A DNA stretch of 42,069 bases, from positions 1 through 42,069 of IMG/VR virus record IMGVR_UViG_3300009537_004357. One strand, written 5' to 3'. Position numbers and translations under genes: made by a program. Numbering within the stretch: the first letter of the stretch is position 1; each line of letters starts with the position of its first letter. This document shows positions 11,193-34,239 of the stretch, in pieces. Under the pieces are notes generated by a model. That model was not told where the DNA came from and made no database searches. It saw nothing but the letters and a program-made list of their open reading frames with translations. The stretch comes from a virus.

Positions 11193-11657
11193 TCAGGCCG
11201 CCGCGACCCCGCTGAATTGCGCCACGCTCTCCACCACGATCTGCCGGCCATACCAGGTGCCCTTCTCGTCGAACTGCCAGAGGTCGGCGCGCCCCAGGCT
11301 GACGATGGGCCTCTGGCTCGATCCCGGCAGCACGATTCGCGCGCCGGCCAGGATGTCGTCGCAATCGTTTAGCAGCTTGTGCCCCGCGCGCCGCTCATCT
11401 TCCGAGCCGCGGAGGTTCGACGTGCCCACAAGCACCGTGAAGACGATCCCCGATTGATAGGTCAGCCGCAGGTGATCCCGCCGCGGGTCCAATACTTCTC
11501 CGGTGAAGAGCAGAAGCACGGCAGGCGGCTGGACGATCACGTCGAGCGTGTCGTCCAGGTCGCCGGCGGTCAGCGCCTTCACCGTCTGCACGTTCTTGAG
11601 CTTCTTCTTCAGAAGCGCGCGCAGCGCCGCTTCTACCTCGTCGACTCTCGTTCCCAT
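11193..11657 (-). CDS. Gp37-like (DUF1834) head-tail / tail terminator protein
   Basis: A 154-residue protein resembling Mu gp37-type DUF1834 proteins: N-terminal helix (MGTRVDEVEAALRALLKKKL), then a beta-alpha body with VLLLFTGEVLDPRRDHLRLT, a YQSGIVFTVLVGTSNLRGSE strand and helix, and AGHKLLNDCDDILAG. In Mu-like phages this gene follows the gp36 and G-type genes, as here, and contributes to tail completion. The spacer upstream carries a REP-like palindrome. Confidence 0.8.
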   Translation of the reverse strand: MGTRVDEVEAALRALLKKKLKNVQTVKALTAGDLDDTLDVIVQPPAVLLLFTGEVLDPRRDHLRLTYQSGIVFTVLVGTSNLRGSEDERRAGHKLLNDCDDILAGARIVLPGSSQRPIVSLGRADLWQFDEKGTWYGRQIVVESVAQFSGVAAA

Positions 11658-11661
11658 TCTT

Positions 11662-11697
11662 TGGAGTGCGGCGGCTTGACGCCGCTTTGCCTTTCTA
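11662..11697. repeat. REP-like palindrome, copy 1
   Basis: TGGAGTGCGGCGGCTTGACG followed by CCGCTTTGCCTTTCTA. The arms GCGGCG and CGCCGC form a hairpin around CTTGA. It lies between the gp37-like gene and the G-like gene and includes the stop codon of the latter. A second GC palindrome CGCCGCTCCGGCGGCG (11699-11714) abuts it and encodes the last residues of the G-like protein. Confidence 0.9.
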
Positions 11698-12246
11698 CGC
11701 CGCTCCGGCGGCGTTTACCTGGCCCTGGATAATCTCCTCCGCCTGCTTGGCGCCCTCGATCTCAGCAAATTCCGGCGAAGGCAGGAATGGGCGCGCCGGC
11801 AGATGCATCCGGCGCGAATGCGCCGTCACCAGCGCGATGCCGCCGAGCTTCCGGTTCTTCCCGCGGCCGCGCGAGGGAATCGCACGCCGATGCGCCGGCA
11901 CGGCCACGGTCCCGCTGAAGCCGTACTGGTGCGCGGCGGCATAGGGCAGGTTCGAGCCCACGAACGCGGTGTCGCCTTCGACGCCCCTGATGATGCTCCG
12001 CACCAGATCGCCGCGGAGCTGCAGCATCGTCTTGCCCGGCCGCCGCTTCGCTTTCCAGGCCGCATACCGCGCACTGAGCGCCGGCCAGGGCGCGCCCTCG
12101 GGCGTGCCCTGCTTGCCGAAAGATTCCCGGGTCACCAGGAAGAGCCACTCCGCCAGGCCGGCCAGGATGGCGGGCTTCAGCCGCTCGCGCAGCAGCCCGA
12201 ACTTCCTGCGCACATCTTCCCAGTCGACCGTGATCTTCACCGGCAT
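11695..12246 (-). CDS. Mu G-like virion morphogenesis / tail completion protein
   Basis: A 183-residue protein of the phage virion morphogenesis family (Mu gpG, P2 gpS type). Signature stretches: LFLVTRESFGKQGTPEG, PWPALSARYAAWKAK, LQLRGDLVRSI, SNLPYAAAHQYGFSG, and a C-terminal RPFLPSPEF, all usual in this family. The ATG at 12246 (MPVKITVDW) is preferred; an upstream ATG at 12267 adds seven residues and lies in a repeat-bearing spacer. It sits between gp36-like and gp37-like genes, the expected order at the head-tail joint. The last codons are made by palindromic repeat sequence. Confidence 0.88.
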   Translation of the reverse strand: MPVKITVDWEDVRRKFGLLRERLKPAILAGLAEWLFLVTRESFGKQGTPEGAPWPALSARYAAWKAKRRPGKTMLQLRGDLVRSIIRGVEGDTAFVGSNLPYAAAHQYGFSGTVAVPAHRRAIPSRGRGKNRKLGGIALVTAHSRRMHLPARPFLPSPEFAEIEGAKQAEEIIQGQVNAAGAA

Positions 12247-13202: not shown

Positions 13203-14093
13203 TCAGTTCGTCAGCAGCCGCGCCCCGGTTGACGTGCCATCCGTGATCACACAGACCGCTACGTTGGCCGGTGCGAGAATACCCAACGGGATGATCCCGA
13301 TGGGCGGGTTCGTGATGGGCCCCAGGATGGTGGTCGTCCCCGTGCCGCAATTCGTCCCCGTGCCATAGCGGACCGTGACCGTGCCCGTGCCACCCGCCGA
13401 CTTTTCAACGAGGATGGCGCGGATGTACGTCTGGTCGCCGCCGGAGGTTGCCGCCACCACTTCGGTAAGGGTCGCCGCGGCCACCGCCGCAGAGAGCGTC
13501 GAAAGCTGGCCGATCTGAAGCACGCCGGCGCCCAGCGCGCCGACGCCTTCATTCAAGTAAGCGGCATCAACCCCTGAACCGTTAGCAAGCTTTGTGGGCC
13601 AGGGGTCGGAGCTGTCGGCGGCTGCGCCGCCCTGCGTGACTTCGCTGATCGTGGTGTTGAACGTCTGCCCGATGCTGTTCGTAAGGGTGACGTACACCGT
13701 GACCGTGGGCGAAGAGCCGCCGGTGAGCGCCGTCAACTCCATATTGAAGTAATTATCGATGCCCGCGATCGACTTGTTCACCGCCGAGGTGCAGGTGATC
13801 GAGGCGTTCGCATCGTCGGCAACGATGGTGGCCAACGCCGCGGTGGGCCCCGTATAGAACTTCACCGTGCAACCCGAGGGCGAGCCGGTAGGCACCACGC
13901 GGATCAGGGCGCTCGTGAAATTAAGCGCCGGATTCCCTGAACTCCAGAAGAGCCCCGTGGTCGAGCGCGTCACCCCGGCATAGGAGTACTTCACGTTCAC
14001 GATCGGCGTCCGCGATTGCGCCGCCACCGGAGCCGCTGCCAGCAAGGCGAGCGGCACCAGCAGCAACGCGGCAAGCAGTTTCTCCTTTACCAT
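13203..14093 (-). CDS. Secreted protein of unknown function inside the head operon
   Basis: A 296-residue protein with a clear Sec signal peptide: MVKEKLLAALLLVPLALLAA then PVAAQS, with probable cleavage after AAQ or VAA. The mature part is beta-rich with Thr, Ser and Gly (ATIVADDANASITCTSA, FNMELTALTGGSSPTVTVYV, then an Ala-rich helix ALGAGVLQIGQLSTLSAAV, then GTGTVTVRYGTGTNCGTG). It carries few cysteines, possibly disulphide-bonded. It lies between the major capsid gene and the head-completion genes with a strong GGAGAAGGAAGAA leader, so it is expressed with structural genes. I do not recognise the family. An envelope or periplasmic role during late infection, or a decoration protein with a misleading signal, are both possible. 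Confidence 0.8.
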   Translation of the reverse strand: MVKEKLLAALLLVPLALLAAAPVAAQSRTPIVNVKYSYAGVTRSTTGLFWSSGNPALNFTSALIRVVPTGSPSGCTVKFYTGPTAALATIVADDANASITCTSAVNKSIAGIDNYFNMELTALTGGSSPTVTVYVTLTNSIGQTFNTTISEVTQGGAAADSSDPWPTKLANGSGVDAAYLNEGVGALGAGVLQIGQLSTLSAAVAAATLTEVVAATSGGDQTYIRAILVEKSAGGTGTVTVRYGTGTNCGTGTTTILGPITNPPIGIIPLGILAPANVAVCVITDGTSTGARLLTN

Positions 14094-14153: not shown

Positions 14154-15092
14154 TTAGGCGACCGCGTTTTTGACCAAGTAGAGGGTCTGCACCGCCGTGA
14201 TCTTCTGGTGGTAGTAGTCGTCCGCGCCGACGATGTCGGACTTGGCGGTCGGATTCGGGTGGCGCGCCTTCACCACGCCGATGCCGCTGCTCGTGCCCGG
14301 CGCCGCGCTCCAGCGGAACGTCTTCACGCCGCTCACGTCCATCCGCCCGGCCGCCCGGTTGCGGTAGCCGATGATGGCGTGTTTGCCCCAGACAAAGCCG
14401 GGGACGCCGGCCGCCACTTCCACCGCGCGGCCCACCAGGAATTCCTCGACGCCGAACACGGCGGCCAGATCCTGCTCGTTCAGCCGGCCGCGCTGCACGT
14501 ATTTGAAGAGTTCCTTGATTTCCCTGTTCTGGATCAGCTTAGTGAAGACCGCCTCGCCGACGGCCATGAAGTTCGGCGCCACGCCGGACTCACGGATCTT
14601 CGACTTGCCGGTTTCCACCACGCCGATGGGGTCGGAGTTCAGCAGATCACTCCACTGATCGCCCCCGGCCAGCGTGATGTTGTTCGTCACCTGAGCGGTA
14701 TCGGTCAGCATGGTGGCCAGCTCCTTCTCCCGCTGGAGGAGGATCTTTTCCATCATGGTTTGCACGGCATCCTGCTCGATGTCGCCCGCCTCCGCGTAGC
14801 CCGGGCGGTCCTCGTCGGCGATGTTCGCGGCGAGCGCGTGGCTCCGGCAGAAATAGCTGTCGGTCGAGAGCGCGATGCGGATGGCCTCGGCCGGGGCGCC
14901 GGTGGCGCGGAGTTGCTGCTCGGTCAACTCCTGGCCCTCACGCCCATAGATGTAATACTTGTCCGATTGCCGGCCCACCAGAACGGCGGGCGCGATGCGG
15001 TCCGCGATCAGCTCATTATTGCTGAACTTCTTCGCGAAATTCGTCAACGCCGCGTCGAGGTGTCCGACAAGGGGAGCTGCAGAAGATCCCAT
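14154..15092 (-). CDS. Major capsid protein
   Basis: A 312-residue capsid-type protein: a short N-terminal helix (HLDAALTNFAKKFSNNELIA), a segment YGREGQELTEQQLRATGAPA, a long spine-like helix region (DIEQDAVQTMMEKILLQREKE split in two), then TLAGGDQWSDLLNSDPIGVV, a pattern common in HK97-fold capsids of Mu-like siphophages, and MAVGEAVFTKLIQNREIKELF. The C-terminus DYYHQKITAVQTLYLVKNAVA is the expected closing beta strand. GGAGGAAAACGAA precedes ATG. It follows the decoration gene and the protease/scaffold gene, the usual order. Confidence 0.9.
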   Translation of the reverse strand: MGSSAAPLVGHLDAALTNFAKKFSNNELIADRIAPAVLVGRQSDKYYIYGREGQELTEQQLRATGAPAEAIRIALSTDSYFCRSHALAANIADEDRPGYAEAGDIEQDAVQTMMEKILLQREKELATMLTDTAQVTNNITLAGGDQWSDLLNSDPIGVVETGKSKIRESGVAPNFMAVGEAVFTKLIQNREIKELFKYVQRGRLNEQDLAAVFGVEEFLVGRAVEVAAGVPGFVWGKHAIIGYRNRAAGRMDVSGVKTFRWSAAPGTSSGIGVVKARHPNPTAKSDIVGADDYYHQKITAVQTLYLVKNAVA

Positions 15093-22445: not shown

Positions 22446-22646
22446 TCACCAGGTATGTTTTTTGCGCCCGCGTTCGATCTCTTCTTTGAAGACGGGAGTC
22501 GAACGGAATGCGTCGGCCTCATCTGCTGTGGCCAGCAGTTCCGTGGCGAGCTTTTCGCCTCCGGTCCACTGCGGCACGAACTGCGCCGCCAGGCGCAGCA
22601 GGGTGGCCACGATGATCAAAATCGCGTCAATGGATGCCGCTTTCAT
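22446..22646 (-). CDS. Small membrane-anchored protein of the lysis cassette
   Basis: A 66-residue protein with one N-terminal hydrophobic helix (AILIIVATLLRLAAQFV) and a soluble charged C-terminus (EKLATELLATADEADAF). Its ATG overlaps the lipoprotein stop (ATGA). One span plus a soluble tail fits an inner-membrane spanin or a regulator of lysis, paired with the adjoining lipoprotein; this is an inference from order and topology. Confidence 0.68.
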   Translation of the reverse strand: MKAASIDAILIIVATLLRLAAQFVPQWTGGEKLATELLATADEADAFRSTPVFKEEIERGRKKHTW

Positions 22647-23143
22647 CGGATCGCCTCCTTAGCCGCGACGAGGGCGGCCAGGCCGTTGGCCATCAGTGAT
22701 TCCAGATTTCGCTCTGCACCCAGCACCGGGGCGCAGGGACCGCCGCGGCCGTCGCCGTCTTGGTCTACGCCGTATGGCTCGCTGCCCGGCAGCGGAACGC
22801 CCGAGCAGTAGACGTTGATGGCGTCGCCCAGCGCGTTCTGCGCGTCGATGCTGGAATGCAGCGCCGGACAAATCCCTTCCTTCGCGGCGGGCCGGTCCGC
22901 CGAGCATTCCGGGTGGTTCTTCTGGGCCTGTCCGATGAAGGCTCCCAGTTTTTCATACACCCCGCGCGCGAGTTGCTCGGTGGTCAGCGCACCCACGACC
23001 GGCGCGCGCGCCTGCTTGGGACCGCAGCCAGGCAGAGCGAAAGTTAGGAGGGACAGAACGATGAGCGCCACACTCCGCCTTCCTCCTGTCCCCCGGTTTT
23101 CTCTCCGGGATCCGCAGTAGGCCAGATTCGGGTTTGTCTTCAT
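22643..23143 (-). CDS. Lipoprotein of the lysis cassette
   Basis: A 166-residue lipoprotein read from ATG 23143 (GGAGGAGCAGG upstream); an ATG at 23170 overlapping the endolysin stop would add nine residues. The hydrophobic segment SVALIVLSLLTFALPGC ends in a lipobox with Cys40. The mature part includes a DQDGDGRGGPC motif of the calcium-binding Excalibur/EF-loop kind, and several cysteines. A gene just after the endolysin in the same operon is often an outer-membrane spanin, but this mature part is longer than usual for Rz1. Envelope location is well supported; the precise role is not. Confidence 0.78.
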   Translation of the reverse strand: MKTNPNLAYCGSRRENRGTGGRRSVALIVLSLLTFALPGCGPKQARAPVVGALTTEQLARGVYEKLGAFIGQAQKNHPECSADRPAAKEGICPALHSSIDAQNALGDAINVYCSGVPLPGSEPYGVDQDGDGRGGPCAPVLGAERNLESLMANGLAALVAAKEAIR

Positions 23144-23166
23144 CGTCCTGCTCCTCCGTTCCGTTT

Positions 23167-23511
23167 TCACGAGGCTCCTTCGCGCAGCCAGGCCTCGCCC
23201 TGCTTCGGGTCGTACTCGATGTGGATGTGGTCCGTCTCCAGCACCACATCGAAGCCCAGTGGTCCGAGCGCCGCTTCCAGGTCCGCGTGCACCTGGCAGA
23301 CCTGCGGCGCCGTCAGGTGGCGCGTGCGCAGGTCCGCGCCCAGCCCTTTGTTGTGGAGACTTTTCGGGCGTTTCGCGTGGCTGTCGGTGAGCGAGGTAAC
23401 TACAAGAGGTTTACGGAGCGCGCGATAGATCTCCTGCGCCACACCCAGCGCGAACCAGATCATCGCCTGCACGCCTTCGGTCCTTACTCCGCGTTTCAGT
23501 TGCAAGACCAT
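23167..23511 (-). CDS. M15-type peptidase endolysin
   Basis: A 114-residue zinc peptidase of the M15 kind. It has SLHNKGLGADLRT (res 51-63), the SxHxxGxAxD motif with H53 and D60 as zinc ligands, and DHIHIEYD (94-101) carrying the third His and catalytic-site Glu. The family cleaves peptide stems of peptidoglycan. There is no signal peptide, so it should depend on a holin. Small membrane and lipoprotein genes follow directly, forming a lysis cassette. The start is uncertain: ATG 23511 has a poor ribosome site and ATG 23463 is an alternative, though VVTSLTDSHAK is needed. Confidence 0.85.
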   Translation of the reverse strand: MVLQLKRGVRTEGVQAMIWFALGVAQEIYRALRKPLVVTSLTDSHAKRPKSLHNKGLGADLRTRHLTAPQVCQVHADLEAALGPLGFDVVLETDHIHIEYDPKQGEAWLREGAS

Positions 23512-23877: not shown

Positions 23878-24434
23878 CACGCCGGGACCTCCTGCAGTTG
23901 CTTTGCCTCCGCGCGCTCCTGTTTCAGGATCCCCTTCAGTGCCCACTTCACCTTATTACTGTCGGCCTGAGTGCGGATCTGCATGCGGCCGCCGAGCGGG
24001 CCGGAGCGCGAGCGGAGAAAACCCTCGAAGCGTTCCTGGCTCCAGCCGAGCTGCGCGAGCAGCTCGCGGATCCGCGCCAGGTCGTCGGCGCTGGCCGGCC
24101 GCACCACTTTCTCTTCGTAGCCCCGCCGGCCGGCGCGCCCCATGCTGCGCGCCTCTTCTCTCGAGCGCCGGCGGCGCCGCTTCACCAAGTCCGCCGGCAG
24201 CTCCGCCTGGATGGCATCAATGGCCTGATCGAGCTGCTCCGGCGTGAGGTCTTTGAAGCTGGCCAGCTCCTCGAGCCCCAGCCGGCGCGCCACCCAGCCC
24301 AGCCGCAGATTGCGCTGGTATTCCTTCGAAGGCAGCCCGCCGGTTACGAACGGCAGGATGCGGTGCTTCCAGTAAAGGCCCCACAGCGTCTGCAGGCGTT
24401 GCAGCTTCTTGGCCGGTGGACGGCTGTCAGGCAA
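23877..24434 (-). CDS. GemA/Gp16-like regulatory protein (DUF1018 type)
   Basis: A 185-residue protein. KLQRLQTLWGLYWKHRILPF, YQRNLRLGWVARRLGLEELA and SFKDLTPEQLDQAIDAIQAE fit Mu GemA/Gp16 (DUF1018) domains; the C-terminal part (ADDLARIRELLAQLGWSQER) repeats a similar helix pattern. The start is taken as TTG 24434: AGGAGG (24441-24446) lies 6 nt upstream. Starts further upstream would translate a REP-like element. It overlaps the preceding small gene by 8 nt. GemA proteins modulate host and middle phage gene expression in Mu; here the family match is moderate. Confidence 0.72.
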   Translation of the reverse strand: MPDSRPPAKKLQRLQTLWGLYWKHRILPFVTGGLPSKEYQRNLRLGWVARRLGLEELASFKDLTPEQLDQAIDAIQAELPADLVKRRRRRSREEARSMGRAGRRGYEEKVVRPASADDLARIRELLAQLGWSQERFEGFLRSRSGPLGGRMQIRTQADSNKVKWALKGILKQERAEAKQLQEVPA

Positions 24435-24768
24435 CGGCCACCTCCTGTGTAGCGCCGGCATCTTGCCGGCCGTGAGGCAAAGCGGCGTCGAGCCGCCGCA
24501 CTCCAAAACGGCGGCCCTGGCGGCCGCCCGCCAAAACGAGTGCACGGCGGATTAGGCGCCGCATAGTCCTCTGGAAAGGCGGGTGGCTTACTGGAACGCG
24601 TTCTATCGCCCCAAACTGGCTCACAACGCGTTGTTGGGCCTTCCTACGCAGCATCTTAGCCTTGTGCTTACGCCACCGGCAGGACGCGGAAAAATGGCGG
24701 TGCCAGGGCCTCCGAGGTTTGAATACCCGGCGGCACGGACAGACGCATCTGCGTTCACCTGCGTTCAT
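24427..24768 (-). CDS. Small basic zinc-finger protein with repeat-derived tail
   Basis: A 113-residue basic protein. The first 40 residues, RRCVCPCRRVFKPRRPWHRH and FSASCRWRKHKAK, form a Cys/His cluster suited to bind one zinc, like small phage C2H2-type proteins. The middle is Arg-rich. The last about 28 residues (FGVRRLDAALPHGRQDAGAT) are the translation of a REP-like palindrome and a second GCCGGC hairpin. So the original gene probably ended earlier, or the stop is supplied by the repeat. Nucleic-acid binding is likely. Confidence 0.68.
   Translation of the reverse strand: MNAGERRCVCPCRRVFKPRRPWHRHFSASCRWRKHKAKMLRRKAQQRVVSQFGAIERVPVSHPPFQRTMRRLIRRALVLAGGRQGRRFGVRRLDAALPHGRQDAGATQEVAVA
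24454..24508. repeat. REP-like palindrome, copy 3 (inverted), with adjacent GCCGGC hairpin
   Basis: AGGCAAAGCGGCGTCGAGCC then GCCGCACTCCAAAA (24475-24508) is the reverse orientation of copies 1, 2 and 5. Next to it GCCGGC-ATCTT-GCCGGC (24454-24470) forms another 6-bp hairpin. Both lie within the 3' end of the 113-aa gene. Confidence 0.9.
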
Positions 24769-24774: not shown

Positions 24775-25206
24775 CTACTCTTTTTTCTCTCCCGATGGTG
24801 CGATGGTCCGATGGGAAAATGTCTTGTCCTGGCTGCTATAGCTCCAGCCGGCATCCGCCCATTCCCGAGGATCCTCGGGGATGCCGTTGGCTTTCAGCCA
24901 GCCCGTGAAGCGCTGCCACTTCACCTGCGCGCGGCGCTGCAGCTCGTCGATGGAGATCGGGATCTCCACCTTGCCGGAGAGCGCGGAGATGCGGGTGATC
25001 TCGTTGATGATGAGCTGGCGGTCGTCGAGCGCTTCGGTAATTTCCGGCGGCAGAGGGATGGAGCGATTTTCGGATTTAGTGCTTGGTGGATTGGCGGCGG
25101 GAGATTCGCCGGAGGCCTTTGCACTCTGGCCCCAGCAGGGCGCAGCAAGCAGCGCCCCTACGAGGAGTAATCCGAAAATCAGATAATGGATCAATGGTCC
25201 TTTCAT
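24775..25206 (-). CDS. Secreted small protein, function unknown
   Basis: A 143-residue protein with a Sec signal peptide (IHYLIFGLLLVGALLAAPCW then GQS). GGAGG lies 6 nt upstream of ATG 25206. After a low-complexity linker, the folded part is LPPEITEALDDRQLIINEIT, then ISIDELQRRAQVKWQRFTGW with LKANGIPEDPREWADAGWSY. The tail SHRTIAPSGEKKE is the translation of a CGATGG-type repeat. It follows the two giant secreted proteins 13 nt downstream and may act with them in the envelope. I do not recognise the family. Confidence 0.75.
   Translation of the reverse strand: MKGPLIHYLIFGLLLVGALLAAPCWGQSAKASGESPAANPPSTKSENRSIPLPPEITEALDDRQLIINEITRISALSGKVEIPISIDELQRRAQVKWQRFTGWLKANGIPEDPREWADAGWSYSSQDKTFSHRTIAPSGEKKE
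24791..24824. repeat. CGATGG-type dispersed repeat at a gene 3' end
   Basis: CCCGATGGTGCGATGGTCCG followed by ATGGGAAAATGTCT. It encodes the C-terminal tail of the 143-aa secreted protein. Confidence 0.75.
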
Positions 25207-25219
25207 TGTGTTCCTCCTT

Positions 25220-28200
25220 TTACGTCGCTGGTCTGCCGCGCGGCACGGTGCGGCATCCCGGACCCACGCCCTGGTAGCAGTAGGGGTAGGGAGCTTCTTT
25301 GTAGTAGAGCGTCCAGGTATCCGTGGCCGTGCATTTATATGCCTGGCGCTCATCCGTGGCCCAGTAGAACACCTGGGCGTTCTCGGTTGACGCGGTACAT
25401 CCCGCGCGCTGGGCAATCGTGCCCACACAGACACCCGAGGGGCAACTGGTGCCCGGCGTCCACGACGTATTCTCGTTCACGAAATCGCGGTTCTCATTGA
25501 TGAGCGTGTCGGCAGACCGCGCATTTGCGCCGCCGCCGTGCTCCTCGATATTCGCAAAGGCCAGCGGCGGCACCTGCGGCTGATTCGGCCAAGCCGCCGG
25601 AGTGGGCGGGCTGCCGCTCATCAGATCGCCGCCCGCGCGGCCCACTTGGTCGAGCGCGGGATAGACTTTGTTGACCTGGTAGCTGTCGCCTGGGTCGATG
25701 CCGTGCGTGGTGGTCCCTTTCGAGGCGCAGATGGTCAGTGTGGTCGCTGTAGAGCTGCAAATCGTCGAGGCCCAATCCTGTGTGACGTTGCGGAACGTAT
25801 AGTCTCCTGTGCCGCAATTGCCGCCTGCGCAGGCAGTAGTGAAATCCTTGGTGGTATCTTCGAGCAGGTCCGTGCCCGAACCCGCCGTGGCCGTCCCGCT
25901 CACAAAGGGATTTGAGGCATCGTTTTTGTCGTAACTGCCCACGCCGCTCGCGCAGCCATAAGGGGTCCAGCAATCCGTGGCGCGGAACAACTGGAGCTTC
26001 ACCGGGTTCGGCTTGTAGTAATTCGTCCCGGTGTCCTCCCAGGTGATGTTGTAGAAAAGGCCGGTGCCGCCGCGAAGAATGCCGCCCGAATCGTGATTCG
26101 CGCTGGGCGGCGTAAAGGTACAATCGTGGACAATCAGCGCCAGGTGGCTGCGCCGGATGTTCGAGCTGTCTGTGCCGTGATTGGTGAGGTCACTGATGGC
26201 GATGCCGCTTGAATCCGCCACGCAGTAGCGCACGATGGCTTTTGCACCGTCGAAGCCGTCCACCGCGCCGGGTCCCACGGCCGGAGCCGTATCCCGCAGC
26301 GTGGAGTCCTCCACCACGATCCAGCCCGCGAGCGACCCGCTGGTCAGGTCGAGCGATTCTCCCCAGTTGCCCATGCCGTTCACTTCGCCGCCGCAGCCGC
26401 CTTGATGGAACTCCACGGGAATCTTGCCGGAGCCGACGTAGCGGATGTGGTCAATCACGCCTTCCAGACAAGAGTCCGAGCCGAAGACGACGCCCTTGGA
26501 GCGCGGGTTGGTCCAGTTCACATGGTCGATGCGGAAGGGCGTGCTGTTCACGCCGCCCAGGGTAATCACGCCGTTGAAGTGCGTGGCTCCCACGCCGACA
26601 ATCTCCAGATTCGTGATGCGGACGTGCCCGGAACTGATCCCGGAAACGGCAATCAGCGCCGTATTCGCTCCGGCGTCGTCGCCGATGATGGTGCGCGGCC
26701 CCGCGCCCATGGCGTTCCCTGAACCCATCAGCGTAATAGCCTTCGTGATATTGAGCTTACTCGACCAGTTTTCCTGCGTGGGGCAGACGGGGATCACCAC
26801 CGTGTCTCCAGCTGAAGCGGACCCCACCGCCGAATTGACATCCGCGAAGGCGCAACTGGCGGCTTCGATGCCCGCCGGCGGCTGGGGCGGAAAAGCGGCC
26901 ATAAAGCGTAGGCCCTCTTCCTCGAGGCCGGCGGCGATGCGCACCAGCTTCCAGGCCGGCACCGGCCAGCGCATGCGCCGCGGAAGATTTGTCCATCGCT
27001 CCATCGGATCATCGGGCCATCGCCCAGATCGATCGCCAGGTGGAAAGATCTTCCGATCAAATGATTGCCTGATGATGGCGGTAGTACGGCGTTTCGTGGG
27101 CGCAGCCGGCGCGGTGATCCATTCGATCATCATGTAGAGCGCGGTGGCGCGGCATTCCTGGGGACCGCCGAGAGATACGGTGGTATAGCCGATGTCGAAA
27201 CTCTGGATGTTGGCTTTGGTCTTGCCAGCCGTGTTGAGCGCCAGGAGGGAATGCTGCTCGGGGGTGGACCAGGAAGCAGTATCGCACATGGCCGTAACCG
27301 TGCCCGAACTGCTTGAGCCGCCCTCGTCCCACACTTCCCATGCGGCAGTGCCCGAGCCGGAGGTTGACGAGCCCCCCATTTTGCCGAGCACATGCACCAG
27401 GCGGATCACGGCGTCGCTAGGCACCTCGGTGGGAATCGTCGAGATATTGAAGCGGTCAGTAAGGCCGTTTGTCGCCCCTGCGTTGTAGCCCGAGGCGTCG
27501 TCCGGGGTTCCCGGCAAATCGTCCACGCAGTCGGTGTTCGTGGTGCCGCTGCAATTCGCCCCCGTCTTGGTGAAGGCCACCGTGTCGTCAGACGCCGGCT
27601 TCACAAAAGCCATGTTGCGCCCGCAGGCCGGGACCCCATTCTGAAAGCTTCCCGCCTCGTCATTTACTGCTAAATCGTCATAGCTGAGCACGCCGGCAAC
27701 GCTTGAGCCTTTGCCGACTCGCAGAAGCAGGATATTCGTGGGCAGGGTATCTTCCCCGGTGATGGAGACCGAATCGAGCAGCGTGCAGGAATCGTCGTAG
27801 AGGCGCAGGGCCATCGAACCGCCTGAATCGGCGATCACATGGTCGAGCTGCACCTCATACCAGGTGGAGGCGGAAAGCGATGCCGTGGTGTCCGCCGTTG
27901 TGGCGGTTACCGCATTGGTGAGGCGCAGCTTCCCGGTGGTCAGCAGGGTGGCCTGCAAGGCGTTGGCGGCGGCGTTCGACTGGTCGGCAAAAAATATAAT
28001 GTCGGCTCCCGGCGTGGCCGTGCTGGTGGTGAAACGCATGGCCACGAAAAGCGTGCCGGTGGTCTTCTGGGCGGCAAGTTGCGCCCGGGCGATGGAGCTG
28101 GACGCCGCGTTATTCGTATCCATCCGGTAGGTGCCGGAATGCGGGCTGGTGGTGCCGCAGGTGGGCGCATTGCCGATCGCTGTGTTGAAGGCAACGAGGA

Positions 28201-28312
28201 TATTGTTCGTTTCGCATCCGAAGCTGATCAGGCGGTCGGCGCGCGCGGGCGGCACGCACAGCAGAATCACGCCGCAGATCAACGCAGCCGGGATGTGGCG
28301 TAGGAGGCTCAT
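25220..28312 (-). CDS. Giant secreted LamG-like plus beta-helix protein
   Basis: A 1030-residue protein starting at ATG 28312, overlapping the upstream stop (ATGA), with a Sec signal peptide (LLRHIPAALICGVILLCVPP then ARAD). Residues about 60-210 look like a LamG/concanavalin-type beta sandwich (LFVAMRFTTSTATPGADIIF; STWYEVQLDHVIADSGGSMA; LSYDDLAVNDEAG). About 330-430 is another beta domain with CRATALYMMIEW. A proline/Arg-rich linker from a CGATGG-type repeat follows, then a right-handed beta-helix-like region with ITLMGSGNAMGAGPRTIIGD, VRITNLEIVGVGATHFNGVI and IDHVNWTNPRSKGVVFGSDS. Many paired cysteines fit an exported location. Possible glycan-binding or depolymerase role; no catalytic residues identified. 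Confidence 0.82.
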   Translation of the reverse strand: MSLLRHIPAALICGVILLCVPPARADRLISFGCETNNILVAFNTAIGNAPTCGTTSPHSGTYRMDTNNAASSSIARAQLAAQKTTGTLFVAMRFTTSTATPGADIIFFADQSNAAANALQATLLTTGKLRLTNAVTATTADTTASLSASTWYEVQLDHVIADSGGSMALRLYDDSCTLLDSVSITGEDTLPTNILLLRVGKGSSVAGVLSYDDLAVNDEAGSFQNGVPACGRNMAFVKPASDDTVAFTKTGANCSGTTNTDCVDDLPGTPDDASGYNAGATNGLTDRFNISTIPTEVPSDAVIRLVHVLGKMGGSSTSGSGTAAWEVWDEGGSSSSGTVTAMCDTASWSTPEQHSLLALNTAGKTKANIQSFDIGYTTVSLGGPQECRATALYMMIEWITAPAAPTKRRTTAIIRQSFDRKIFPPGDRSGRWPDDPMERWTNLPRRMRWPVPAWKLVRIAAGLEEEGLRFMAAFPPQPPAGIEAASCAFADVNSAVGSASAGDTVVIPVCPTQENWSSKLNITKAITLMGSGNAMGAGPRTIIGDDAGANTALIAVSGISSGHVRITNLEIVGVGATHFNGVITLGGVNSTPFRIDHVNWTNPRSKGVVFGSDSCLEGVIDHIRYVGSGKIPVEFHQGGCGGEVNGMGNWGESLDLTSGSLAGWIVVEDSTLRDTAPAVGPGAVDGFDGAKAIVRYCVADSSGIAISDLTNHGTDSSNIRRSHLALIVHDCTFTPPSANHDSGGILRGGTGLFYNITWEDTGTNYYKPNPVKLQLFRATDCWTPYGCASGVGSYDKNDASNPFVSGTATAGSGTDLLEDTTKDFTTACAGGNCGTGDYTFRNVTQDWASTICSSTATTLTICASKGTTTHGIDPGDSYQVNKVYPALDQVGRAGGDLMSGSPPTPAAWPNQPQVPPLAFANIEEHGGGANARSADTLINENRDFVNENTSWTPGTSCPSGVCVGTIAQRAGCTASTENAQVFYWATDERQAYKCTATDTWTLYYKEAPYPYCYQGVGPGCRTVPRGRPAT
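26992..27059. repeat. CGATGG-type dispersed repeat inside the 1030-aa gene
   Basis: A 68-bp stretch of CATCG/GATCG units (CCATCGCTCCATCGGATCAT, CGGGCCATCG, AGATCGATCGCC, AGATCTTCCGATC). It is in frame and encodes an Asp/Arg/Trp-rich linker (SGRWPDDPMERWTNLP) between the two halves of the secreted protein. It may mark a fusion point of two formerly separate genes. Confidence 0.65.
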
Positions 28313-31300
28313 CGCGTCCCTACGATCACCACGCGCAGGTTGGTGGCGGTTCCGCCTGCTGTGGCGGTGTTGGCATCCACTGTGCTCGTAGACGTAAGCG
28401 TGGGCGCGCCGTTCAGCGTGCCGTTGGCAAATGAGCCGGTGCCGCAGGTAAGCGCGCCGGTCAAAATAGAGTCCGAGGCTCCGCCGGTGAGAATGGGAAG
28501 CACCGTGGGCGACCCCGCATCGGCCCAACAGCGCACCGCCGTGATCGTCACGGTGACTCCCGTTTCGTTGCGACACGAGGCAGCCTCATCGTCCGTATCC
28601 TGCAGGACGCCCGAAGCACCGCTGCCCCAGATATGCAGCTCGCAGGTCCAGATGGCGTACTTCGCAGCCAAGGTGGTGGCATTTGACCCGCTGGTGGTCA
28701 CGGCGCCCGAAAGCTCGGCGGCCGACCAGGTGCCCGTGGAGACGCGCAGCACACCCGTTGAGCCGCTGGTATCAATCCCCGTGCCGCCGCGCGCCGCTTC
28801 GATCTGTCCGGCACTGAAAAAGGCGGTGGCGGAATCGCCGGTCAGGGCATTGCCCGCTTCCCCATCGCCGGCCGCGTAGTTTCCTGTCGTGTCCGTGGTA
28901 AGCGCCACGGAATTCGCCGCCACAGCGGTAGCCTGGCCGGAGGAGTTGCCGTAGGCGGCGTACTGCAGCGCGGGGGTGGCCGCGTTGTCGCAGTATTGCA
29001 GCGGCGTGGTGTGGACTTGGATCTTGCCCTGCGTCGAAGCGCCGCAAGTAAGGGCCCCGGAGGCCAGGAAATCGGCCTCGCTCGAGGCGGTGACCAGCTC
29101 GGCGCCGGATACCCCGATGCCTGCGCCGTCAATCGACGTCAGCAGCAGATGCGCGGAAACGTTGTTCGGCGTCAGCGCATCCTTCTGCCAGATCACATTG
29201 ACGGCATTCGCCGGAGCGGCGGGCGTGGCATCGTCGAAATCGGCGTCGCTGGCGGCCGCCCCGTTGACGCTGATATTGTCGCCCGAGCCTCCGCCGCAGC
29301 CTGCGCCGGAATCGCCGAGCTTGCCTCCGGTGACCCAGGTAACGCAGTTGCCGTTTGTGGGATCGGCGCCCAGCGAAGTGGTGGCCAGCTTCGTATCCGG
29401 AGCGGAGCCGTAGCGCGACCAGGCAAAGCCGATGTCTCCGGTCGTGGCGCTGAGCGTGACCGGCGAGCTGGCGCTGACGGCCATGGTGCCCGCCGCAGAA
29501 GGCCATTTCACGGTCACCACGGTAGCCGTGGGCACGTTTGAATCCACGTCAAATTCGCCTTCCTTATCAGGGTCAACGGAGCCTTCCACGCGGAAGGGGT
29601 CGGCGGCACCGGAATCTTTGAACGTGCTGTTCAGTGTGATGAGGCCAACGGTTTCCGCTCCGCCGGTGATACTGGTGATCCCCAGAACCTGATTGACCGC
29701 GGCGCCGGAGAAATTCACACGGGGAACGACGCCCGTGGTCCCGTATTCGTCGCTCAGCACGCCCACCAACTGCGCGGAGGTGGTGGCCGCAAAGAAGCCG
29801 AGATTGTCGGTGGCGTTGGGAACGGCATTGCCGCCTTCGGTAAGCGTGGTGGCGGCCGCCGTGCCGGTAACCGTGAGTGTGGAGCCGTCGAAGGTAAGAT
29901 TAGTTTCCGAAACGCAGCCCCCCGCGCCGTCGTCGGTCACCACCTGATTATTCGAACCGCTGACCGTGCAGCCGGAGCCGCCGGGCGGTACGGCCCAGGT
30001 GGCGTCGGCTTTCAGAAACTTTCCGGCGGCCGCATCGCCCGCCGCAGGCGCGGGCACAGCGCCCTTGGTGCCTCCGGCGCCGGAATCACCCACCATGGTG
30101 GGATAATCGGCGGCCTGGATGGAGGACGAAACGAAATTCGTTCCATTGCCGCGCAGGTATTCGCCGGAACTGGCGGCGCCAGAAATCTGATAGCCCACCG
30201 TGGAATTCACGGACGTGAAGAAATTGCCGCCTTGGAAAACCCCTGCGCCCGTGGTGGTGCCGCCGCCTCCTCCGAATTCGTTTCCACCTAGATCGTAGAA
30301 GCTGCCTGCATTGTTCACGGCGAAGCCTGTGCCCGTCGAACAAAGCTGTGAACCGCTCACATAGGCTTTACCGCCCGCGACCACTCGGACCCCTGTGTAA
30401 TTCGCAGCCGCCGAACATTCCTTGTTCCCGCCGACCGTGGAGCCGATCACCCAAACCCGTGCCCCGGATACGGCTACATCGATCGCCGTGCCGCCGGCCA
30501 GGGCCTGGGTGGCGAAACCGTGCAGCCAGATCGTGCCGTAAGGCGTCTGAAAAGCCACATAGAGCGCCGTGGGCGCTGTCGACAATCCGCCGATGAGCTG
30601 CGTATTCGCGTCGAAACTCCAGATGCCGCGGTTCAGGGCACTGACAATGGGCCGTAGGAACGAAATCCCTGTAGCGGAAATTTTCAGGCCCACGTCGCAG
30701 CCGATCGATTCTACGTAGAGATGCTGGCTGCCATCCGTGCCAAAGAGAATACAGGGCCTGTTCGAGACCAGCCAATTCGAGACGCGGATATGCCGGCTGT
30801 ATTTGGCATTCAGGCGAATCAGCGATTCCGTGCCTCCGGGAGGCGAGGGGGCGCCGGGGAATTCGTTGTCCACCGAGAAGCCTTCGTAGGTGTTCTTTTG
30901 GGACGAACTATCGATCAGGTAGATGCTCGTGGCATAAGGAAAATCAAAGGGTGGAAAAACGAATTGGGTCAGGTCGGGCCCGTCGCCGCGATAGGCCACG
31001 CGCTGAGTGGTTCCAGAAAGGATTTTATCAGTGACTAGATATTTCCCCCCGGGCAGGTAGAGCACCGCGCCAGATGTGAGCGCCGCCTCGGCGGAATTTA
31101 TGGCCGCTGTGTCGTCCGTGCCGATCCAGGCGCCCACGGCCGAATTGTTGACTACCGCATTCCCGGAGAGCGTGATCTGGGTGTCTGACTGAAAAGAACT
31201 GACAGTGAGAAGAGGGATGGCATTTGATCCCCCCGAGGTGAGCGTACCGAAAATCTTTTTCCCCACGTCGCTGCTCTGAAAGCTGCCGGCGGGACCGGTG

Positions 31301-32808
31301 ATAATCGGCGAACCGTTCACGGTGGTAAGGCCCGTCGCCTTGCGGGCATCCCCCAAGGCTCCGTAGTTCTTCACGTTGATCAGCGCGGAAGTGAACTCGC
31401 ATGTCAGCGCCCCATTGGCGGCGATGCCAATAGCGCGCTGGCCCGCAGGGCAGTCGGCGGGATCGGCAGCCAGGGCGCTGGCTGTGGCGGCGTTGCCGGT
31501 GATGTTTGAATCCGTATAGGCAAGCGTCTTGCGCGTGGGCCCGGTGGCCTGAGTGATGAAAAGGTTCGTGCCGTCCCATTCGAAGGCGTGGGCTTCGGCT
31601 GCGGTCAGCGCCGCTCCGGCCTGGAAATATACCGGCGCAGTGCCCGCCGAAGCGGTGCCAGCGCGCACGGTCAGGCTTCCCGTCAGCGTGCCTCCGGCAA
31701 GCGGCAAATAAGAAAGGCTGGGGATCCAGCCGGCGTCCAGTGTGCCGCCGGCGCCGGCTTTGGGGATGGCGTTGGCGGCGGCCGTGGCGGTGGCTACTTC
31801 GTCGCCGCCGGCATTCTGATGCGTGGAGGCGTGCGCGGTGGGCGTGCGGGCATCGGAATTGCGCGGGTCGGAATTCGTGACGTACTTATTGCTCGCCGAT
31901 GGCGCGCCGTTGGTCCCGGCCAGGGCCGCCTTTTCGTCGGTGCTGGGATCGTTGGCATTTGAGTGCGTCGCGAAATTCAGCGCCAGCTTCGATTCAGAGA
32001 TGGCCGCGGCGGCGTCCACGTCGGCGTTGCTGACGAGCTGTGCCGTGCCATCTTCGACGCCGTCGGTGACGTGCCGGAAGCCCGTCCCGCCGGGCACGCT
32101 GCCGCCGCCGGCCGGGTTGCAATCTGTGCCGGTCTCATCTTTGCACTTCATTTTTCCGGTGGCCGTATCGAACCACCAGTGCGCGCGGCCCGCAGGCGCA
32201 TTGCCGGGATCCGCGCTGGCGACATAGATTTCTTTATCCAGGATGATGCCGTTCGACTGGAACTGGACGGCACTGGCCTGGTTCGAAGGCGCGGCCGGCG
32301 CCAAGTCGGCCCAGTCCACCGAGCCCTGGTCGGGCACCACCTTTACCTGCTCGACCTCCACCTTGCCCAGCTTGAGGGGCTCGGTGGCGGCGGATGGGTT
32401 GAGCTCGAGTTTCAGCTCGGTGGCCAGGCCCGAAGGCGAGCAGCCGGAGTTCGGCACGCGCGGGATGCCCAGGTTGCCGGCGGAGTCGATCCATTTGCCA
32501 TCGCCGCGGATCCAGCCCTGCGACGGGCCCACGTAGGTGACGCCGCCGCAGGTGACTTCGCGGTAGCGGACACAGCGCGTGCCGGTAGCGTCTGTCTCGC
32601 AGGCTTGGAGCTGCACGCGCCCATAGACGTTGGCCGCGGCGATCTGCGTCGAATAGGGACGAATGCCGGCCGCCAGAGGGGTGCGCTTGTCCTGGGTGAG
32701 CGTGGTCCCGGTAATCGTGGTGCCGGTCTGCGCCCGCGCCGCCGGTGCGGCCAGCGCGAGCGCCAGCAGAATAAAAATATTGCAACGTCGTAACGTCACA
32801 GTCTTCAC
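28309..32808 (-). CDS. Giant fibre/tailspike-like protein with Sec signal peptide
   Basis: A 1499-residue protein beginning MKTVTLRRCNIFILLALALA then APAARAQT, a textbook signal peptide with AxA cleavage. The start overlaps the zinc-finger gene stop (ATGA). About 200-400 resembles phage fibre shafts (PTAHASTHQNAGGDEVATAT; SYLPLAGGTLTGSLTVRAGT). About 480-800 is a pectate-lyase-like beta helix as in tailspikes (INVKNYGALGDARKATGLTT; LYLPGGKYLVTDKI; YEGFSVDNEFPG; IRVSNWLVSNRPCILFG). The rest is repetitive Ala/Thr/Gly fibre sequence ending in a beta domain. Normal tailspikes lack signal peptides, so either export is real or the fibre is a secreted form. It is unclear whether it enters the virion. 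Confidence 0.85.
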   Translation of the reverse strand: MKTVTLRRCNIFILLALALAAPAARAQTGTTITGTTLTQDKRTPLAAGIRPYSTQIAAANVYGRVQLQACETDATGTRCVRYREVTCGGVTYVGPSQGWIRGDGKWIDSAGNLGIPRVPNSGCSPSGLATELKLELNPSAATEPLKLGKVEVEQVKVVPDQGSVDWADLAPAAPSNQASAVQFQSNGIILDKEIYVASADPGNAPAGRAHWWFDTATGKMKCKDETGTDCNPAGGGSVPGGTGFRHVTDGVEDGTAQLVSNADVDAAAAISESKLALNFATHSNANDPSTDEKAALAGTNGAPSASNKYVTNSDPRNSDARTPTAHASTHQNAGGDEVATATAAANAIPKAGAGGTLDAGWIPSLSYLPLAGGTLTGSLTVRAGTASAGTAPVYFQAGAALTAAEAHAFEWDGTNLFITQATGPTRKTLAYTDSNITGNAATASALAADPADCPAGQRAIGIAANGALTCEFTSALINVKNYGALGDARKATGLTTVNGSPIITGPAGSFQSSDVGKKIFGTLTSGGSNAIPLLTVSSFQSDTQITLSGNAVVNNSAVGAWIGTDDTAAINSAEAALTSGAVLYLPGGKYLVTDKILSGTTQRVAYRGDGPDLTQFVFPPFDFPYATSIYLIDSSSQKNTYEGFSVDNEFPGAPSPPGGTESLIRLNAKYSRHIRVSNWLVSNRPCILFGTDGSQHLYVESIGCDVGLKISATGISFLRPIVSALNRGIWSFDANTQLIGGLSTAPTALYVAFQTPYGTIWLHGFATQALAGGTAIDVAVSGARVWVIGSTVGGNKECSAAANYTGVRVVAGGKAYVSGSQLCSTGTGFAVNNAGSFYDLGGNEFGGGGGTTTGAGVFQGGNFFTSVNSTVGYQISGAASSGEYLRGNGTNFVSSSIQAADYPTMVGDSGAGGTKGAVPAPAAGDAAAGKFLKADATWAVPPGGSGCTVSGSNNQVVTDDGAGGCVSETNLTFDGSTLTVTGTAAATTLTEGGNAVPNATDNLGFFAATTSAQLVGVLSDEYGTTGVVPRVNFSGAAVNQVLGITSITGGAETVGLITLNSTFKDSGAADPFRVEGSVDPDKEGEFDVDSNVPTATVVTVKWPSAAGTMAVSASSPVTLSATTGDIGFAWSRYGSAPDTKLATTSLGADPTNGNCVTWVTGGKLGDSGAGCGGGSGDNISVNGAAASDADFDDATPAAPANAVNVIWQKDALTPNNVSAHLLLTSIDGAGIGVSGAELVTASSEADFLASGALTCGASTQGKIQVHTTPLQYCDNAATPALQYAAYGNSSGQATAVAANSVALTTDTTGNYAAGDGEAGNALTGDSATAFFSAGQIEAARGGTGIDTSGSTGVLRVSTGTWSAAELSGAVTTSGSNATTLAAKYAIWTCELHIWGSGASGVLQDTDDEAASCRNETGVTVTITAVRCWADAGSPTVLPILTGGASDSILTGALTCGTGSFANGTLNGAPTLTSTSTVDANTATAGGTATNLRVVIVGTR

Positions 32809-33203
32809 CTCCGGAACTTTCTGTGGGCCTTCTTCAGGTGGTCGCTCAGCTTGTCGAAACCGCGGGCCTTACAGCGGGACACTGGGCACCGCCCGCGTTT
32901 CAGACGCTTCACGCGGCGTTCGAGTTTGCGGATGGCCCGATCCCGCTGGCCGCGCGCCTGCAGTTTCAACTCCTGTTCTAGCGTCGTTTGTGATTTTTGC
33001 CAGGCGAGGGCCTCCTGGAGCTTCTCTTCTTTTGACTTCACTACGAAGGCTTGGCTATGCCCATGCGGGCAATAGAAGGACGCGTGCGTGCGGCGCAATT
33101 CCTCTTCGAGCCGTTCCGGGATGGCGAAACTGACACCGCAGTCCTCCTTGTAGCAGCAGATCGTCGTCATTCGCTGTGTCAGGAACAGCGGATTTGCGCT
33201 CAT
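32805..33203 (-). CDS. Multi-zinc-finger basic protein
   Basis: A 132-residue protein from ATG 33203 overlapping the upstream stop (ATGA). N-terminal CCYKEDCGVSF and CPHGHSQ suggest one zinc site; a charged coiled-coil-like middle (KEEKLQEALAWQKSQTTLEQ) leads to an Arg-rich run, then CPVSRCKARGFDKLSDHLKK and AH, a clear C2H2-type finger. It likely binds nucleic acid. It directly precedes, and is coupled to, the 1499-aa secreted protein. Unknown family; early/middle regulator is a guess. Confidence 0.75.
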   Translation of the reverse strand: MSANPLFLTQRMTTICCYKEDCGVSFAIPERLEEELRRTHASFYCPHGHSQAFVVKSKEEKLQEALAWQKSQTTLEQELKLQARGQRDRAIRKLERRVKRLKRGRCPVSRCKARGFDKLSDHLKKAHRKFRR

Positions 33204-33403
33204 GTCTGGTCCTCCTTCTTCGGGTCGAACAGCGTCGGCTCGGTGTTGGCGGCGCGACCTTTCTTCTTCCGCTCGACAATCGGCGTCTGATGCTCCAGGC
33301 AGGCGCCGCGGCGCCCGCCGGAGACGCTGTGGCGCGTCACGCGGCCGCAGCGGTTGCACCACGCCGAGCATTCGTAGGTCGCCTGCGTGTAGTGCTCGGT
33401 CAT
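33200..33403 (-). CDS. Small zinc-ribbon protein
   Basis: A 67-residue protein from ATG 33403. It has CSAWCNRCGRVTRHSVSGGR then ACLEH, four Cys/His positions apt for zinc, and a charged C-terminus. It is the first minus-strand gene after the plus-strand toxin-antitoxin cassette, only 56 bp from the toxin start, so it must have its own promoter in that AT-rich divergent spacer or be read through the cassette. Function unknown. Confidence 0.68.
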   Translation of the reverse strand: MTEHYTQATYECSAWCNRCGRVTRHSVSGGRRGACLEHQTPIVERKKKGRAANTEPTLFDPKKEDQT

Positions 33404-33424
33404 GCCGCGGCCCCCCGATTTTGC

Positions 33425-33453
33425 TTGACAATATATTCCCTCTGTGGCATATT
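33425..33453 (+). promoter_or_regulatory. Toxin promoter, apparently leaderless
   Basis: A perfect -35 TTGACA (33425-33430), a 17-bp spacer and -10 CATATT (33448-33453). Transcription would start about 6-7 bp downstream, exactly at or one base before the toxin ATG (33460), giving a leaderless mRNA. The spacer contains palindromic AATATATT (33430-33437), and ATATTCC occurs twice 16 bp apart (33433-33439, 33449-33455), suitable as operator half-sites for the antitoxin. Functional role is inferred. Confidence 0.65.
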
Positions 33454-33459
33454 CCAGGC

Positions 33460-33873
33460 ATGGCATCCTACAGCCGCAATGAGCTGAAGGGCTACAACCC
33501 GCCCCCGTTTCTTGTGGAAACGACGGATGAGTTTCGGGGCTGGTACGAAAGACAGGCGCAGGATTTGCAGGACGCCCTGGATGCCGCCATCGAATTGCTG
33601 GCCGAGCAGGGGCCTCAGTTGGGGCGTCCCTACGCGGAGACGATTACTGTGGTGGCGGGCTATAAAACGCGCCATGCGAACCTGAAGGAGCTGCGGGTGA
33701 CTCATCGCGGAGACGCCTACCGGGTGTTCTTCGTCTTCGACCCGCGCCGTGTGGCTATCCTGCTCTACGGCGGGCGCAAGCCGAACGAGAAGTGGTACAA
33801 GAAGGCGACGCCGCTGGCCGAAAAACTTTACGACGAGTACCTGGTCGAATTGCGGGAGGAGGGCTGGCTGTAG
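33460..33873 (+). CDS. higB: HigB/RelE-like toxin (Gp49 family)
   Basis: A 137-residue protein of the Gp49-like (DUF891) RelE/HigB toxin superfamily, mRNA-cleaving on the ribosome in characterised members. Features: FRGWYERQAQDLQDALDAAI, EQGPQLGRPYAETI, KELRVTHRGDAYRVFFVFDP and RRVAILLYGGRKPNEKWYKK. The core strand pattern LKELR..YRVFFVFDPRR..LLYGG.K is diagnostic. It is on the plus strand, against all phage genes, and precedes its antitoxin by 39 nt. The promoter places the start at the first base of the message. Confidence 0.92.
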   Translation: MASYSRNELKGYNPPPFLVETTDEFRGWYERQAQDLQDALDAAIELLAEQGPQLGRPYAETITVVAGYKTRHANLKELRVTHRGDAYRVFFVFDPRRVAILLYGGRKPNEKWYKKATPLAEKLYDEYLVELREEGWL

Positions 33874-33912
33874 GAAATTACTGTCGTCGAAGCAAAACCC
33901 TTGGAGGCGACT

Positions 33913-34239
33913 ATGGCGGGACATACGAAATGGAGCGAAGTGCAGGGCCGGGTGCCGCCGGAGCGGCGGGCCCGGATCGATGCGGTCAAGGCACAGATGC
34001 GCGAGGAGTTGGCTCTGGAGGAGCTCCGCGTCGCGATGGACCTGACCCAGGTGGACCTGGCGAAGCGGCTCAAGACGAACCAGGCGAACATCTCGAAGCT
34101 GGAACGCCGAACCGACATGCTGCTTTCCACCCTGAGCGGTTACGTGGCAGCGTTGGGCGGCAAGCTTCAGCTTACCGCGCAGTTCAAGACCGGAGAGGTG
34201 CGTTCGGTGCGCCTGAAGGGGTTGGCGCGTAGCTCGTAG
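33913..34239 (+). CDS. higA: HigA-like XRE antitoxin
   Basis: A 108-residue antitoxin. It has an XRE helix-turn-helix: ELRVAMDLTQVDLAKRLKTN and QANISKLERRTDMLLSTLSG, then YVAALGGKLQLTAQF, the standard ending of HigA-like partners of Gp49 toxins. ATG 33913 has GGAGG 5 nt upstream; an in-frame TTG at 33901 is less likely. It should neutralise the toxin and repress the shared promoter. Confidence 0.92.
   Translation: MAGHTKWSEVQGRVPPERRARIDAVKAQMREELALEELRVAMDLTQVDLAKRLKTNQANISKLERRTDMLLSTLSGYVAALGGKLQLTAQFKTGEVRSVRLKGLARSS

Follow-up and report, generated by a model that had tools for sequence, protein, structure and literature searches.

Predicted signal peptides and paired cysteines in fibre proteins of a Mu-like phage and of cultured phages of Acidobacteriota

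Fibre- and tailspike-like proteins with predicted Sec signal peptides and paired cysteines were found in a Mu-like transposable soil phage, known from a 42,069-base virus record that was analysed over its whole length (the window). Such signal-bearing fibres are not unique to this phage, as they were also present in several further lineages and in the cultured phages Tunturi 1, 2 and 4. The reading that we lean towards, in preference to exported proteins that never enter a virion, is that these are fibres of the virion, folded in the periplasm and added to the particles when the cell lyses or later. The wider proposal, that tailed Acidobacteriota phages of podovirus, siphovirus and Mu-like type finish their virions outside the cytoplasm, through the attachment at or after lysis of Sec-exported and periplasm-oxidised fibres, is regarded as evenly balanced. 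An earlier reading made from the sequence alone (the sequence-only reading) had pointed out that virion fibres are normally cytoplasmic. This is right for most phages, whose fibres carry no export signal, and hence the signals in the window and in the signal-bearing set of its relatives make this group unusual.

The Mu-like nature of the phage, which had been claimed from the letters alone, was confirmed by matches to a transposase (phrog_310, 4e-66), a transposition ATPase (phrog_296), a portal (phrog_113) and a minor head or DNA pilot protein (phrog_220), with a weak match to GemA. A protease (phrog_976) and a major head protein (phrog_1005) were also present, so that the window holds a DDE transposase, a transposition ATPase and Mu-type head genes. 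Being transposable, the phage is probably temperate. On the minus strand the gene order begins with the transposase, the transposition ATPase, the early region, the fibre cassette and the weak GemA, continues with the terminase, portal, minor head protein, protease and major capsid, and ends with the head-tail connectors, the tail and tape measure genes and a DNA methyltransferase. The three consecutive signal-bearing genes of the cassette (the triad) are situated between the early region and GemA, outside the structural operon, and their remoteness from the tail genes had been seen correctly before.

Three further elements of the window were recorded. A HigB/HigA-like toxin-antitoxin pair (phrog_3445 toxin and HTH antitoxin; 33460-33873 and 33901-34239) is encoded on the plus strand just upstream of the cassette. 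A short repeat (translation ECGGSTPLCLTAGKMPAL...) occurs twice in opposite orientations, at 24430-24545 (minus) and at about 11630-11730 (plus), and is possibly a host-type interspersed repeat. Between GemA and the terminase, a 175 aa protein (22643-23170) with the lipoprotein-like signal LSLLTFALPGC is possibly a lysis protein of the spanin type.

The cassette is a tight operon of translationally coupled genes. Its first gene encodes a 218 aa early-type protein (phrog_33336; 32805..33461, minus strand), and the coupled starts argue that this gene and the triad form one operon. The triad was found on the minus strand in the place reported by the sequence-only reading, and the lengths given for the first and third genes (1499 and 143 aa) were correct; the second gene encodes 1029 and not 1030 aa. 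The 1499 aa fibre/tailspike-like protein (28309..32808, minus strand) is predicted to be exported. The first GTG of its gene (32808) is overlapped by the stop of the 218 aa gene, and the GGAGG at 32812-32808 best fits the second GTG (32799), which is the more likely start. From this codon, the predicted signal peptide MTLRRCNIFILLALALAAPAARA (32731..32799) leads to a putative cleavage site before QTG. It is followed by a conserved mature N-terminal part (residues 27-470; 31399..32730), which is 46% identical to a 1452 aa fibre of another phage, L002. The pectate-lyase-like beta-helix proposed earlier was matched at the start of the pectate-lyase/rhamnogalacturonase-like family PF12708 (31012..31119), though barely, with 27.1 bits against a gathering score of 27 over the short stretch of residues 564-599. 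This was the only homology of the 1499 aa protein itself to a virion family.

The 1499 aa and 1029 aa genes overlap as ATGA. The 1029 aa protein (25220..28309, minus strand), also predicted to be exported, begins with the predicted signal peptide MSLLRHIPAALICGVILLCVPPARA (28235..28309), called by the scorer described below, and carries a virion-type domain that matched phrog_14065 at 2e-12. The third gene (24775..25206, minus strand) is preceded by the ribosome site AAAGGAGG and encodes a small protein of 143 aa, predicted to be exported and with no cysteine after the signal. No family match was obtained for it in Pfam or the PHROG profiles; an EFL1 identity was rejected, the match being weak and below the cut-off. 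A fourth signal-bearing gene, absent from the sequence-only reading, was found directly after the major capsid gene (14154-15092, minus strand) and thus within the structural region. It encodes 296 aa (13203..14093, minus strand), with a predicted signal ending in LAAAPVAA before QSRTP and four mature cysteines.

Signal peptides were called with a rule-based scorer written for this analysis (a heuristic, not SignalP) with a cut-off of 6. When applied to 40 E. coli genes (50 kb), it flagged all six known signal peptides and lipoproteins, and the only hit among the other 34 was the signal anchor of TolA. Shuffled phage N-termini passed in 1.9% of cases. The three triad genes scored 8.1, 7.5 and 7.4, which upheld the earlier claim that each begins with a Sec-type signal. 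Clear n-, h- and c-regions with an AxA-type cleavage site, as expected of Sec-exported proteins, were seen in the triad and in the 296 aa gene, all above the cut-off. A fifth hit in the window, at an internal GTG of the transposase, was judged spurious. The predicted cleavage site often falls between A and Q or between G and Q. The same ending is seen in several signal peptides of the acidobacterium Granulicella, which is only suggestive of an acidobacterial host for the window phage.

A single close relative of the 1499 aa protein was identified, the 1452 aa protein of L002, with 46% identity over 469 residues. This homologue keeps the signal peptide, where the sequence-only reading had envisaged that the prediction might fail. 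The identity begins at AQTGTT, the predicted cleavage site, and the hydrophobic region of the signal is kept while its sequence is not conserved. The L002 gene comes after a major tail gene and has three more signal-bearing genes around it. In the terminase relatives of the window phage, L005 and L006, which are nearly identical to each other, signal-bearing genes of 190, 758 and 558 aa were located between head genes. Signal-bearing genes were also found in the structural operon of L002, G002/G003, L097-L099, Tunturi 1/2 and Tunturi 4. Outside the window phage, such genes were usually seen at the fibre or structural locus, with as many as five side by side. Homology to virion fibre, spike or minor tail families was found for the 1029 aa protein and for these relatives, which matched a tail fiber family (phrog_16641, 7e-16), a tail spike family together with PF12708 (phrog_2234) and the virion families phrog_341 and phrog_215. 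Two scans of genome contigs gave no relative, and a PDB sequence search gave nothing useful. AlphaFold2 models built with few relatives, for residues 25-880 of the 1499 aa protein and for the 1029 aa protein, had pLDDT values of 30 and 31 and were not interpretable.

The 1499 aa protein has 22 mature cysteines, which form 11 sequential pairs. The members of a pair are separated by 8-36 residues, and most pairs lie far from the next. Similar pairing was observed for the 28 cysteines of the L002 homologue and for the 26 mature cysteines (13 pairs) of the 1029 aa protein. In permutation tests, the pairing had p values of 5e-5 for the 1499 aa protein, 2.5e-4 for the L002 homologue and 0.008 for the 1029 aa protein, and of 0.001, 0.001, 0.006 and 0.0005 for gp12, gp13, gp14 and gp17 of Tunturi 1. 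The combined p for 22 signal-bearing proteins of all lineages was 3e-21, or 1e-18 when two homologous partners were left out, and the number of cysteines was even in 22 of 28 signal-bearing proteins. Some pairs are common to the 1499 aa protein and its L002 homologue, and others have been gained or lost as whole pairs: C70 and C79 of the window protein are both absent in L002, as are C289 and C306 of the L002 homologue in the window protein. Pairing combined with the gain and loss of whole pairs is the mark of disulfide bonds, which are predicted here, and the cysteine pattern is that of a Sec-exported protein. As disulfide bonds need an oxidising compartment, the pairing supports export, and the prediction of export into such a compartment is well supported.

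Ordinary phage fibres carrying the shaft module of the L002 homologue (VTDPTA..RT.T.PDA.G; 80 loci in IMG/VR) were used as a control, and 61 distinct complete fibres of at least 200 aa were drawn from these loci. Their cysteine content (median 0.0%, maximum 0.5%) did not overlap with that of the 24 signal-bearing proteins of at least 200 aa (0.9-2.7%). A few control fibres scored above the signal cut-off, and all of these except L040 look false. L040 (IMGVR_UViG_3300025289_000049) is a shaft-module fibre with a signal-like N-terminus and only one cysteine, which perhaps reflects a different kind of host. A reciprocal search with the Cys-pair module retrieved three new phages (L097-L099), and the fibre concerned had a signal in all three. 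In L097 and L099 it lay among structural genes, with additional signal-bearing genes for fibres or spikes beside it. Overall cysteine content, when set against all other phage genes, was not significantly different (p 0.24), because small DNA-binding and zinc proteins are rich in cysteine; the valid tests are the one for pairing and the comparison with matched fibres.

The tailspike of L099 led to the Tunturiibacter phages Tunturi 1 and 2, which the main text of PMC11924767 presents as isolates from an acidobacterium. Predicted signals were found in Tunturi 1/2 on gp12, gp13, gp14 (annotated as tail spike or as pectin lyase), gp16 and gp17 (annotated as virion structural protein). The predicted mature proteins begin with QTAAYPNG in gp12 and with QTCTQTF in gp17. 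The signal of gp13 is of the same plain form and its score of 5.9 is just below the cut-off. The large signal-bearing proteins of these phages have paired cysteines. In Tunturi 1, 3 and 4 the remaining structural genes that were scored all fell short of the cut-off, and no candidate for a fibre or tailspike without a signal was found in Tunturi 1. In the siphovirus Tunturi 4, signals were seen on gp113 and gp114, and also on gp111 once its start is corrected. The annotated start of gp111 (L106 36074-39172, PP885687) is 360 bases too late, and the in-frame sequence upstream of it specifies a signal peptide similar to the one on gp113. Tunturi 1 gp17 (L101 19474-23028) and Tunturi 4 gp114 (L106 41019-43325) share about 47-50% identity over 590-745 aa, although Tunturi 1 is a podovirus and the two phages are, in the main text of PMC11924767, otherwise not similar. 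This likeness is the kind of exchange that would be expected of receptor-binding modules. The fibres of Tunturi 3, which infects the same host strain as Tunturi 1, are free of signals and poor in cysteine, and signals were likewise absent from the fibre genes inspected in the jumbo phage Tunturi 5. Export would thus be a property of some phages and not a demand of the host. The main text of PMC11924767 contains no mention of signal peptides or mass spectrometry.

No direct homology was found between the window proteins and the Tunturi proteins. They are linked by shared modules only, from the window 1499 aa protein to L002, L099 and Tunturi gp12, and L099 takes part in this chain through two different proteins. 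Part of the case is consequently one of architectural likeness and not of homology.

Tailed-phage capsids and tails assemble in the cytoplasm, so exported fibres would not reach the particles before lysis. In the favoured reading, the receptor-binding proteins, one a long fibre that includes a beta-helical tailspike part and the other a spike resembling a minor tail protein, would be made with cleavable Sec signals and leave the cytoplasm. In the host, most likely an acidobacterium, many local disulfide bonds would form in the oxidising environment of the periplasm, and the fibres would attach to the particles where they meet them. A podovirus needs a receptor-binding protein, and the only candidates found in Tunturi 1 are signal-bearing, which favours exported virion fibres. 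Counting against this reading are the position of the window triad apart from the tail genes and the infection by Tunturi 3 of the host strain of Tunturi 1 with fibres that have no signals.

The alternative that survives best is that the proteins are exported and have no place in the virion, being extracellular or surface glycan-active proteins (free depolymerases, or agents of receptor masking or superinfection exclusion) built from borrowed tail-fibre modules. The signal peptides and cysteine pairs fit this too, a PF12708 beta-helix is present, and the early-to-middle, moron-like position of the cassette beside the HigB/HigA-type pair favours it somewhat. A lipoprotein-type, hydrolase-like protein in the early region of Tunturi 1 is also in keeping with it. 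This is gp78 (L107 31745-32947, PP887698), annotated as a tail protein, with the lipoprotein signal MNTKILLLSLLLTGC and the look of an SGNH-type hydrolase. Elsewhere, however, the signal-bearing genes occupy the fibre or structural locus in runs of up to five and match virion families, and the podovirus Tunturi 1 would be left without a recognisable receptor-binding protein. We therefore consider this alternative possible and the less probable of the two.

The same data bear on the form of export suggested by the sequence-only reading. Its view of exported proteins stood, as the signal is conserved in relatives, the cysteines are paired and the virion homologue is signal-free. A coat made by the lysogen has become less likely, because such genes sit at fibre or structural loci, including those of Tunturi 1/2; the main text of PMC11924767 gives predicted integrase or recombinase genes only for Tunturi 3-5, and none for Tunturi 1/2. 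The virion's own receptor-binding fibres, made through an exported route, are the more economical reading.

An improbable third possibility is that the proteins are tethered to the membrane or held on the cell surface, and that particles assembled at the envelope collect them on exit. It draws on the same sequence data, and the h-regions are hydrophobic enough to serve as anchors if left uncleaved. The residues of the cleavage site (AxA followed by Q) are nevertheless kept across lineages, and the conservation between the window and L002 starts exactly after them, which counts against tethering. That the signals are artefacts of chance or of wrong start codons on ordinary cytoplasmic fibres was rejected as very improbable, since, despite the ambiguous start of the 1499 aa gene, they are conserved in homologues and present in isolates annotated by others, the other scored structural genes of Tunturi 1, 3 and 4 all fell below the cut-off, and cysteine pairing does not depend on the start codon.

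The assembly of tailed phages is taught as a process confined to the cytoplasm. A recurrent class of signal-bearing, disulfide-rich fibres would imply one of two things: that virion assembly includes a second step outside the cytoplasm, or that a large class of glycan-active phage proteins is secreted under the guise of fibres. Either would change the prediction of receptor-binding proteins, their expression for study and their annotation, and the start of one Tunturi 4 fibre has already been mis-called. With Tunturi 1, 2 and 4 in culture, and with Tunturi 3 on the host strain of Tunturi 1 as a natural control, the question can be tested now.

We know of no tailed phage that builds its fibres by export. 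Among known systems, signal-bearing genes in or near phage tail regions are represented by lysogenic conversion proteins of the lambda Lom type, which are small outer-membrane proteins made by the lysogen and not giants of the fibre or tailspike kind. In the literature searched in full text, no report of signal-bearing tailed-phage fibres was found. Among the closest counterparts are gp12-gp17 of Tunturi 1/2 and gp111-gp114 of Tunturi 4, which are signal-bearing, Cys-paired fibre or tailspike proteins like those of the window; the Tunturi genes are at the fibre locus, whereas the window triad is elsewhere. Ordinary shaft-module fibres share a module with the L002 homologue, but mostly have no credible signal and almost no cysteine. 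The minor tail protein gp13 of the Streptomyces phage Hiyaa (phrog_14065), encoded among head and tail genes, is about 27-30% identical to residues 24-400 of the 1029 aa protein. Unlike the latter, it has the shared domain at its very start, with no signal peptide before it, and it contains 5 cysteines in 1110 aa compared to 26 in 1004. In the 1029 aa gene, the predicted signal thus precedes a protein of virion type.
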